Positions 49,386-52,182 of a stretch of 64,000 nt of DNA are shown here, piece after piece. The stretch spans positions 124,001 through 188,000 of the forward strand of contig NZ_FWFR01000001.1 in the NCBI RefSeq assembly GCF_900172325.1, written 5' to 3'. This DNA comes from Oceanibacterium hippocampi. GTDB lineage: Bacteria; Pseudomonadota; Alphaproteobacteria; Sneathiellales; Sneathiellaceae. Positions within the stretch are counted from its first letter, which is position 1, and each line of letters opens with the position of its first letter. The notes beneath the pieces were generated by a model that was given only the letters and a program-made list of their open reading frames with translations, was not told where the DNA came from and did not search any database. A program made the translations under genes and the position numbers.

Positions 49386-49656
49386 GATACTCGAACATGA
49401 GATTGCGCACGAAGATCAACCCGAGGATCAGGATGATCGGTGAGATGTCGATGCCGCCCAGGTTGGGAAGGATGCCCCGGATCGGCCGCAGCACCGGTTC
49501 GGTCACGCGATAGAGGAAATCGCCGATCACGTAGACGATCCGGTTCTGGGTGTTGACCACGTTGAAAGCGACCAGCCAGCTGAGGATCGCGGACCCGATC
49601 AGCATCCAGATATAGATCGTGATAATCGTGTCCACGAGCTGGAGAAAAGCAATCAT
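49378..49656 (-). CDS. yggT: YggT family membrane protein
   Basis: Small inner-membrane protein of 92 aa with two hydrophobic segments, about residues 5-28 and 68-88, around a conserved cytoplasmic loop (DFLYRVTEPVLRPIRGILPNLGG). YggT proteins are linked to osmotic tolerance and cell division in some bacteria. First gene of the yggT-yggU-folD cluster. Confidence 0.93.
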   Translation of the reverse strand: MIAFLQLVDTIITIYIWMLIGSAILSWLVAFNVVNTQNRIVYVIGDFLYRVTEPVLRPIRGILPNLGGIDISPIILILGLIFVRNLMFEYLV

Positions 49657-49751
49657 CGGCCACCCCGTCCTGTCGAATTCGGCCTAGATGTAGTCGTCCA
49701 CCGGCCGAAGGGCAAGCACCGGATCGCCGCGCCGGACGGCCGGAAAGCCGC

Positions 49752-49781
49752 TTGACAGGCAGCGACGCCGATCCCTATATG
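49752..49781 (+). promoter_or_regulatory. tRNA-Ala promoter
   Basis: TTGACA (49752-49757) and TATATG (49776-49781) are spaced by 18 bp, and the tRNA begins 36 bp after the -10 box. The consensus -35 box suits a strongly transcribed stable RNA gene. Confidence 0.7.
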
Positions 49782-49816
49782 ATCGCCGCACGGCCCGCCT
49801 CAACGGGTCGTCCTGT

Positions 49817-49892
49817 GGGGCCGTAGCTCAGTTGGGAGAGCGCGACGTTCGCAATGTCGAGGTCAGGGGTTCGATTCCCCTCGGCTCCACCA
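49817..49892 (+). tRNA. tRNA-Ala (anticodon CGC)
   Basis: A complete 76-nt cloverleaf with encoded 3' CCA. The acceptor stem is GGGGCCG/CGGCTCC with the G3:U70 pair that identifies alanine tRNA. The anticodon stem CGACG/TGTCG holds the loop TTCGCAA, giving anticodon CGC, which reads GCG. The T arm is AGGGG-TTCGATT-CCCCT. Confidence 0.97.
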
Positions 49893-50081
49893 ATTTCCCC
49901 CTTCCCGGATCCTGATGCCGCGCAGACGGATTTCCGTACGCCGGATCCCGTCCGGCCGGATGCCGTGACGTTGCTGCCGGTATTCCGCGTGGCCAGGCCG
50001 GTCAGCGTCATTCCATGCCGAATCCCTGATTTTCTGACGTCAATTTGATGGAACTTGAGCATTTGAAGTAACCTGCCGCCA

Positions 50082-50130
50082 CCCCACGTCTTCTCCTCGC
50101 GCCATTCAGGGAGGAGAAGACACGGTGGGG
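50082..50130 (+). promoter_or_regulatory. Stem-loop sequestering Shine-Dalgarno and GTG start
   Basis: GTCTTCTCCTC (50088-50098) pairs perfectly with GAGGAGAAGAC (50111-50121) across a 12-base loop. After a 3-base bulge (ACG), CCCCAC (50082-50087) pairs with GTGGGG (50125-50130). The 3' arm contains the Shine-Dalgarno GGAGGAG, and GTGGGG contains the start codon of the gene at 50125. A translational switch or a temperature-sensitive hairpin is possible (inference). Confidence 0.7.
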
Positions 50131-50595
50131 CTATCCAGTTTCGATTTCGCCGGCACGGGCGCATACAGGTACCTGCTCGTCCTGCTGGCGGCGGGCGGGA
50201 TCGGTGAAGTCGTCCTCGAACTGCTCTCCTGGTGGGTCGCCCCGACCGTTCTCGGAATGGCCATGCGCCCGGACATCCTGGTCAGCGCGCTCGCCCACGT
50301 CCAGTTCGGGCTGGAGATCCCGGTGAAGCTCGCGGTAAGCATCCACTTGGCGCTCGGACTGCTCGGCTTTCCCCTGCTCTTCGCGCTCGTCAGAGCCGTT
50401 TCTGGCGCCCGCTCGAGCGTGGCGCCCGCGCTCGTCACCGGCGTCGCCCTATGGGCGATCGCCCAGGCAATCCTGGCGCCGCTCGCGGGGCGCCCCTTCA
50501 TGCTCGGCTTCGGTCCCTATACTTGGGCGTCCCTGGTCGTTCACGTGGTCTACATGCTTGTCGTCGCACGCACGGTGGACGTCCTGAGACGATAA
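50125..50595 (+). CDS. Hypothetical four-helix membrane protein
   Basis: I do not recognise the family. The 156-aa protein has four hydrophobic segments (about residues 15-43, 63-90, 98-118 and 130-152) with short loops. The first hydrophobic helix ends with EVVLELLSWWVAP. A GTG start has an excellent GGAGGAG Shine-Dalgarno, but both are buried in a long hairpin, so expression may be conditional. No obvious partner gene; the tRNA-Ala lies 232 bp upstream. Confidence 0.7.
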   Translation: MGLSSFDFAGTGAYRYLLVLLAAGGIGEVVLELLSWWVAPTVLGMAMRPDILVSALAHVQFGLEIPVKLAVSIHLALGLLGFPLLFALVRAVSGARSSVAPALVTGVALWAIAQAILAPLAGRPFMLGFGPYTWASLVVHVVYMLVVARTVDVLRR

Positions 50596-50612
50596 GCCGG
50601 CCCGGGTGTGAC

Positions 50613-50639
50613 GGCCCTCACGGTCCGGTTCGCAGGGCC
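50613..50639 (+). terminator. Possible terminator after the membrane protein gene
   Basis: GGCCCT (50613-50618) and AGGGCC (50634-50639) form a 6-bp stem 17 bp past the stop codon, followed by only three T. Weak by intrinsic-terminator standards. Confidence 0.35.
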
Positions 50640-50652
50640 TTTCGCGTTGGCA

Positions 50653-50882
50653 ATCCGTCCCTATCTATGGGCCTGTGACGGATGGGAACCGGAAGACGGT
50701 CGCGAACGACCGCCGGAACCGGAACGCCCGAGGACAATGGGCCGGTCGGTCACGTCCGAATCACCAAGGATTCACGGGCCGTGGCGACAATGGTCGGCGA
50801 TGTCCGCCAGAACCCCAACCGGGGGAGGCGGATAGCCCGCCACCAGGGTCGCGAATGCGCCGAAGAGAAGGAGACGCGAACG
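50653..50882 (+). ncRNA. Structured leader or small RNA candidate upstream of a 54-aa gene
   Basis: Several hairpins follow one another: ATCCGTC (50653-50659) with GACGGAT (50677-50683); CGGTCG-CGAA-CGACCG at 50697-50712; a CCCC/GGGG hairpin around 50813-50825; and GGCGG/CCGCC around 50828-50841. No protein-coding signal is convincing, although one frame is open through to the 54-aa gene. I do not recognise a known RNA family. Confidence 0.35.
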
Positions 50883-51668: not shown

Positions 51669-51995
51669 TCAGGCCGCGGCGCTGTCCCGGTTCTGGTAAG
51701 CCAGATTGCAGTGATGCACGCAATAGGGCTTTCCTGCCGCCGCCTCCTTGTTGCAGAAGCGGAAGTCCGGTTCACCGGGATGGCCGATCGGCCACTGACA
51801 GGGCCGCTTTGCCGACGGCTCCGCCCGAACCGACGCAGGCTTGGCCTCACCCTTGGCTGACAGGTTCAGCCGGTTGGCCTTTCCGATCACCGCGTTACGG
51901 GTCACGCCGCCCAGCGCTTCGGCGATATCCGCCGCTGTCTTGCCGTTTCCCCAAAGCTCTTTCAGCAGTTCGACGCGTTCCTCGGTCCAAGTCAT
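51669..51995 (-). CDS. gcrA: GcrA cell-cycle regulator (short form)
   Basis: Sigma-70-associated regulator that in Caulobacter activates promoters carrying methylated GANTC sites. The N-terminal HTH (MTWTEERVELLKELW, then GVTRNAVIGKANRLNL) and the C-terminal Cys/His motif (CQWPIGHPGEPDFRFC, then YCVHHCNLAYQ) are both intact. The protein is 108 aa, clearly shorter than the roughly 170 aa of Caulobacter GcrA, because the linker is only about 20 residues (AKGEAKPASVRAEPSAK). ATG 51995 begins MTWTEE; ATG 52007 is in frame. Confidence 0.9.
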   Translation of the reverse strand: MTWTEERVELLKELWGNGKTAADIAEALGGVTRNAVIGKANRLNLSAKGEAKPASVRAEPSAKRPCQWPIGHPGEPDFRFCNKEAAAGKPYCVHHCNLAYQNRDSAAA

Positions 51996-52182
51996 TCCCG
52001 TGCCCAAATCCCAGCTTGCAGTTCAATATCCAGTACGGCGGCGCCCATACCGCGCAAGATATACGCCGCACACCACGTTTTCACAGTTCGTCCCCGAAGC
52101 TTTGTATACTCCGCCAAACGGCGTAAAAGCTCAACCTGAAATCAAGCCCGCGACACCTTTGGAGAGGCCCCCGGGCCAGTGG

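Follow-up and report, generated by a model that had tools for sequence, protein, structure and literature searches.

A stable predicted hairpin over the ribosome-binding site of a DUF6789-like gene downstream of tRNA-Ala in Oceanibacterium hippocampi

The locus and its inverted repeat

The window analysed here is a 64,000-nucleotide stretch of the Oceanibacterium hippocampi genome (contig NZ_FWFR01000001.1, positions 124,001 to 188,000), and all coordinates refer to it. A tRNA-Ala (CGC) gene lies on the plus strand at 49817-49892, and the same strand encodes a 156-amino-acid DUF6789-like protein at 50125-50595; 182 bases separate the tRNA from position 50075, the first paired base of the hairpin described below. 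The tRNA adjoins yggT, and none of 21 relatives' yggT loci contains a tRNA. The strongest tRNA among the matches listed in a search of the family (L024, 95% identical) is also CGC, while the four other typed tRNAs are GGC (L025-L027 and L048, the last from the source genome). A tRNA-integration scar was rejected, as the tRNA 3' end is not duplicated anywhere in the window. A GANTC site lies upstream of the gene (50020-50024) and gcrA (Pfam GcrA) downstream of it (51669-52007); GcrA is linked to GANTC methylation. A composition profile revealed nothing bearing on the hairpin.

The gene looks real, judging from homologues at 27-61% identity (each search's own measure), mostly in Alphaproteobacteria; its reading frame is intact and conserved residues are kept. 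The assignment draws on those homologues, on a match to Pfam PF20587 (DUF6789; E 9.7e-5, 22.9 bits, and so below the curated cut-off of 27.1) and on an AlphaFold2 model built from 17 sequences, which has four long helices (mean pLDDT 91.2). The product is predicted to be a small, DUF6789-like membrane protein. Searches of PHROGs and NCBIfam with the protein gave zero matches, a PDB fold search with the model had a best E of 1.3, and the single paper listed for DUF6789 concerns nematode receptors. An in-frame stop occupies 50056-50058, and GTG 50125 is the sole ATG, GTG or TTG from there to the homologue-aligned region.

An inverted repeat can be read directly at 50082-50130, exactly where the initial annotation had placed a hairpin. 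Its inner 5' arm GTCTTCTCCTC (50088-50098) is complementary to the Shine-Dalgarno region; a 12-nt loop GCGCCATTCAGG (50099-50110) leads into the inner 3' arm GAGGAGAAGAC (50111-50121), which is followed by an ACG bulge (50122-50124) and by the outer 3' arm GTGGGG (50125-50130), which includes the GTG start codon. Both the 11-bp inner stem and a 6-bp outer stem joining CCCCAC (50082-50087) to GTGGGG are entirely Watson-Crick. The Shine-Dalgarno sequence GGAGGAG (50110-50116) had been described as wholly paired; six of its seven bases are, and the first G, 50110, sits in the loop. Folds and sequence together give the outer 5' arm (50075-50087) two alternative registers, GCC/CCACC or CCCCAC. The GTG is closed in both, as had been claimed, but the minimum-energy fold does not use the register originally proposed: it pairs CCACC (50079-50083) with GGTGG (50124-50128) and GCC (50075-50077) with GGC (50129-50131). 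The hairpin ranks seventh among the matches listed in an inverted-repeat search (25 of 47). Because the 5' arm repeats the Shine-Dalgarno-GTGGGG segment in inverted form, the minus strand of the palindrome (50085-50117) contains a mirror GAGGAG-N5-GTG, which by reading opens only short frames.

Predicted closure and the transcripts it would affect

The hairpin is predicted to be very stable. Folding 50070-50145 gave -36.4 kcal/mol (z-score -4.97; 0/200 shuffles as good). The predicted energy of 50075-50131 was -35.2 kcal/mol, against -29.0 for the exact structure first proposed; the inner stem and loop alone reached -21.3 kcal/mol, and 50030-50160 reached -46.1. In silico the hairpin was still closed at 70 C, with start-codon bases at most ~7% unpaired and a Shine-Dalgarno accessibility no higher than at 10 C. 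For four RNA start sites between 49893 and 50082, start-codon accessibility was predicted at 0.004 to 0.08 and that of the Shine-Dalgarno at 0.14. These predictions support near-complete occlusion of both elements in any transcript starting at or before 50082. An RNA starting late in the 5' arm, at 50096, was predicted to be more accessible (Shine-Dalgarno 0.28, start codon 0.33), and one starting at 50104 left the ribosome-binding site just partly open (0.44 and 0.31).

The best match to the alphaproteobacterial (Caulobacter-type) promoter consensus, taken from an excerpt of PMC8144410, is a weak TTGATGG-N13-GAAGTAAC on the plus strand at 50045-50072, with a start predicted at ~50078-50080; it agrees at 10/14 positions, a score reached by 300/1000 shuffles and hence not significant. 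One of the two next-best matches, at 9/14 where those 300 shuffles reach 10, predicts a start at 50096-50098. No sigma-70-like promoter was found. A leader peptide was rejected as well: the 7-codon frame at 50048-50071 (ATG to TAA) has no recognisable Shine-Dalgarno sequence and lies 5' of the best predicted start site. An intrinsic terminator was likewise discarded, with 0 sites on either strand of 49600-50700 and no T run after the stem on either strand; the scan covered intrinsic terminators with loops of 3-8, a type of search to which Rho-dependent termination after the tRNA is invisible.

The initial annotation had proposed a translational switch, possibly controlled by an upstream leader. 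Within the 182-nt leader the best pairing with the 5' arm was -5.0 kcal/mol and with the other arm -7.0, compared with -18.2 for arm on arm; neither arm has a strong upstream competitor. Within the coding region, the 5' arm finds one partner stretch, at -11.3 kcal/mol. A riboswitch or other known leader family was rejected, as the whole window gave only a tRNA match at Rfam gathering scores. With neither a good upstream competing partner nor an Rfam leader match, the switch proposal is not supported.

Conservation among relatives and chance expectation

No homologue of the protein was found in the 24 other genomes of the family (17 of them at least 90% complete); the order-level search comprises the same 25 genomes, and the source genome is the sole one of its genus in the comparison. 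Of 384 class genomes sampled, 7 besides the source genome carry a homologue, as do 11/17 genomes of one other family; a named-genome scan added 16 loci and a plasmid collection one. A scan of viral contigs returned zero relatives, and so did an initial scan of genome contigs queried with this one protein.

We compared 20 + 16 homologue leaders (36 rows, 35 distinct, L078 and L003 being the same locus), with start codons picked by hand from the Shine-Dalgarno sequence and the alignment. The Shine-Dalgarno region and the start codon were both closed in 0/36 (35 distinct). Among these leaders the Shine-Dalgarno region (-16 to -5) had a mean unpaired probability no lower than 0.37, against 0.08 here; in the closest relatives it was 0.53 (L073, 61% identical over the matched part), 0.81 (L074, 57%) and 0.50 (L075, 50%). 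In five leaders (L013, L022, L077, L080 and L083) two or three start-codon bases are mostly paired while the Shine-Dalgarno region is open (at least 0.53). In L003/L078 an 11-bp stem covers the nominal Shine-Dalgarno region, with the first two bases of the start codon open; we counted it as lacking the feature because its start is open and it has no clear Shine-Dalgarno sequence. The leader of the 57% homologue (L074:1361-1387) has a GGCTC/GAGCC stem that would show its Shine-Dalgarno sequence in the loop.

The initial annotation had named a lack of stem conservation in relatives as grounds for refutation, and the stem is missing from 36/36 homologue leaders. Because those homologues are distant (27-61% identity), this counts as a weak refutation. 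A family-wide leader of this kind appears absent among the relatives seen, in a comparison that is a weak test of a genus-specific element. At the level of DNA, a search of the 25 family genomes, which scored at most 20 candidates in each, gave matches to the tRNA portion or to short pieces of coding sequence and never to the intervening leader. With 9-bp arms the motif has a single place in its own genome, and the pattern with a start codon was found in 1/289 sampled class genomes, namely the source genome; a looser, 6-bp version ahead of a start codon has one further place in the genome (control 0). We rejected a repeat or mobile element, given the single genomic place of the motif and the lack of similar DNA in plasmid and phage collections.

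How readily might such a structure arise by chance? As background we used 366 gene starts predicted across the window and a further 400 kb of its genome (464 kb, 67% GC); this set is approximate because the starts come from a simple script (GC by codon position plus Shine-Dalgarno) and not from a gene finder. The leader energy of this gene is the second lowest of the 366, and its 11-bp perfect stem over the ribosome-binding site is the longest, a length shared with one other start. That script-called start (L062:1726, minus strand) pairs GGGGCCTCCGG with CCGGAGGCCCC around a 33-nt loop over the Shine-Dalgarno region.

Shuffles permuted the bases upstream of each real Shine-Dalgarno sequence while keeping its own Shine-Dalgarno and start; per-genome expectations assume ~4,500 genes, an estimate. 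A stem of at least 11 bp over the ribosome-binding site arose in 1,905/4,880,976 shuffles (~1.8 expected per genome), and 11 bp plus an outer stem of at least 6 bp (bulge at most 4) in 21/9,152,562 (~0.01). At least 17 pairs over the Shine-Dalgarno and start appeared in 78/9,152,562 (~0.04), and an energy of -36.4 or lower with both elements occluded in 19/174,370 (~0.5). The original argument that 17 pairs are too many for chance thus holds for one gene taken singly (78/9,152,562) and is weaker for a scan of the genome. Occlusion of both elements is by itself common: it occurred in 3,312/174,370 shuffles and at 11/265 real starts with a Shine-Dalgarno match of at least 4 bases (this one included), against 5.0 expected. 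When the plus strand of the window was folded in 65-nt windows, 33 separate places were at least equally stable, the hairpin itself among them.

Candidate roles of the hairpin

The most likely functional reading, to which we give a probability of roughly one in three (0.35), is that the hairpin silences transcripts that carry its 5' arm, most simply those reading through from tRNA-Ala. In such RNA the inverted repeat would fold into a very stable hairpin with the DUF6789-like gene's ribosome-binding site shut inside it; being too stable to breathe open, it would leave these transcripts in effect untranslated. RNA reading through from the tRNA 182 bases upstream would thereby be kept silent, a form of insulation, and the protein would be made only from RNA that lacks the 5' arm, through an internal start site or processing. 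With no passive opening in silico and no good upstream partner for either arm, the deciding factor would be which RNA carries the 5' arm. We infer, rather than observe, that the RNA exists, that the hairpin blocks its translation, that transcription does read through from the tRNA and that selection has favoured the arrangement.

Four results argue for a block on read-through: firstly, no intrinsic-terminator-like site (loops 3-8) lies in 49600-50700; secondly, the tRNA is on the same strand; thirdly, upstream-initiated RNA is predicted to be closed; fourthly, the layout is rare at any single gene in shuffles. The sigG precedent, and the effect of Shine-Dalgarno pairing on translation in a thermometer leader, both described below, point the same way. 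Against it stand the lack of a significant promoter for RNA beginning within the 5' arm, the ribosome-binding site that is still only partly open in silico in RNA from 50104, the 0/36 homologue leaders with the hairpin, and the tRNA-yggT neighbourhood, which is not conserved (0/21).

A palindrome with no selected function is, in our judgement, marginally likelier than a read-through block, while still falling short of an even chance. Drift or one template-switch event would have produced the inverted copy of the Shine-Dalgarno-start segment, and the gene would be poorly expressed or its RNA 5' end would avoid the arm. This fits the absence of the hairpin from 36/36 homologue leaders, the single genomic place of the 9-bp-arm motif and its occurrence with a start codon in 1/289 class genomes, the ~0.5 cases per genome expected for energy with occlusion, the 32 other plus-strand places in the window that fold as well, and the 5' arm's being an inverted copy of the Shine-Dalgarno-GTGGGG segment; perfect stems can come from a single template-switch event, according to an excerpt of PMC8794818. 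It sits less easily with the rarity of at least 17 pairs over both elements (78/9,152,562 shuffles only), and a lasting block on a gene with an intact frame and conserved residues should be selected against.

It is rather unlikely that the hairpin is a switch opened in trans, whether by an sRNA (for example one antisense to the palindrome), a protein or an RNA helicase acting under some condition. Since the hairpin is predicted to be closed too tightly to open by itself, any regulated translation would depend on a factor that actively opens it, and for ISPpu9 antisense-RNA activation of a structured leader has been proposed, in the portion of PMC8450116 considered here. Against this, no sRNA candidate is known; the window matches at Rfam gathering scores are to tRNA only, the hairpin is not conserved among homologue leaders, and the upstream region offers no good competing sequence, though the coding stretch noted above offers the 5' arm a pairing of -11.3 kcal/mol.

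Improbable, too, is a lineage-specific choice between transcripts, silent with the 5' arm and active from a start inside the arm or after antisense opening, which would couple the membrane protein to tRNA transcription. We consider slightly less probable still a DNA-level operator, in which the perfect 11-bp inverted repeat with its 12-bp spacer would bind a dimeric repressor. The inner repeat is perfectly palindromic in DNA, but it is single-copy in the genome (the looser 6-bp pattern with a start codon has its one further place), the 3-nt offset of the outer pairing suits an RNA structure better than it does a symmetric binding site for a protein, and among six neighbouring proteins scanned the sole regulator family was GcrA, more than 1 kb downstream.

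Thermometers typically reside in conserved leaders of heat-shock or virulence genes. The RNA thermometer suggested in the initial annotation is very unlikely because the hairpin is closed at 70 C in silico and far more stable than working ones: although the Shine-Dalgarno and start codon are predicted to be occluded at low temperature, the structure is predicted to have neither marginal stability nor an opening in the physiological range, its Shine-Dalgarno stem has no internal mismatch, the DUF6789-like family is not a heat-shock family, and the leader is not conserved in the 36 homologue rows. Its energies, -21.3 kcal/mol for the inner stem-loop, -21 to -35 for the hairpin and -46.1 for 50030-50160, compare with thermosensing hairpins of -4.1 to -7.6 kcal/mol in the conserved leaders of Pseudomonas ibpA (excerpt of PMC3669281). 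The same excerpt reports that entire thermometer leaders, with energies of -15 and -21.5 kcal/mol, kept a heat response, that 1.4 kcal/mol corresponds to about a tenfold loss of translation, and that perfect pairing of the Shine-Dalgarno sequence in a thermometer leader abolished reporter expression.

Comparison with known leader hairpins

The hairpin is either a lineage-specific translation block or a sequence accident. If the block is real, a tight leader hairpin beside a tRNA gene would decide which transcripts get translated, and judging the downstream gene by its RNA levels alone would overestimate its expression. Should the hairpin instead be an accident, it illustrates how readily GC-rich genomes yield convincing ribosome-binding-site hairpins by chance (11/265 Shine-Dalgarno starts occluded).

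Occlusion of a ribosome-binding site by a leader hairpin is already a known kind of arrangement. ROSE-like RNA thermometers likewise hold the Shine-Dalgarno sequence within a stem; their hairpins, as described in the consulted part of PMC3669281, are marginal, imperfect and conserved, whereas here the Shine-Dalgarno stem is perfect, the energy is -21 to -35 kcal/mol and none was seen in relatives. The tisB ribosome-binding site is also closed in structure, and the excerpt of PMC7708055 gives tisB features of its own, namely a single-stranded standby region lying upstream and a pseudoknot at the 5' end. Palindromes attributed to template switching share with this one a short, nearly perfect inverted repeat whose arms are separated by a small indel (PMC8794818, in part).

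The read-through block has its nearest parallel in Bacillus subtilis sigG, a GTG gene for which a hairpin of 20+ bp has been proposed to block read-through transcripts (PMC5942855, in the part considered here). The two share a long hairpin over the ribosome-binding site of a GTG gene lying 3' of another transcription unit. According to the same excerpt, sigG has its own promoter, which yields RNA unable to form the large hairpin, whereas both promoter and read-through are putative here; and a separate 5-bp ribosome-binding-site hairpin of sigG is common in Bacilli, whereas conservation was not found in the 36 leaders compared with ours.
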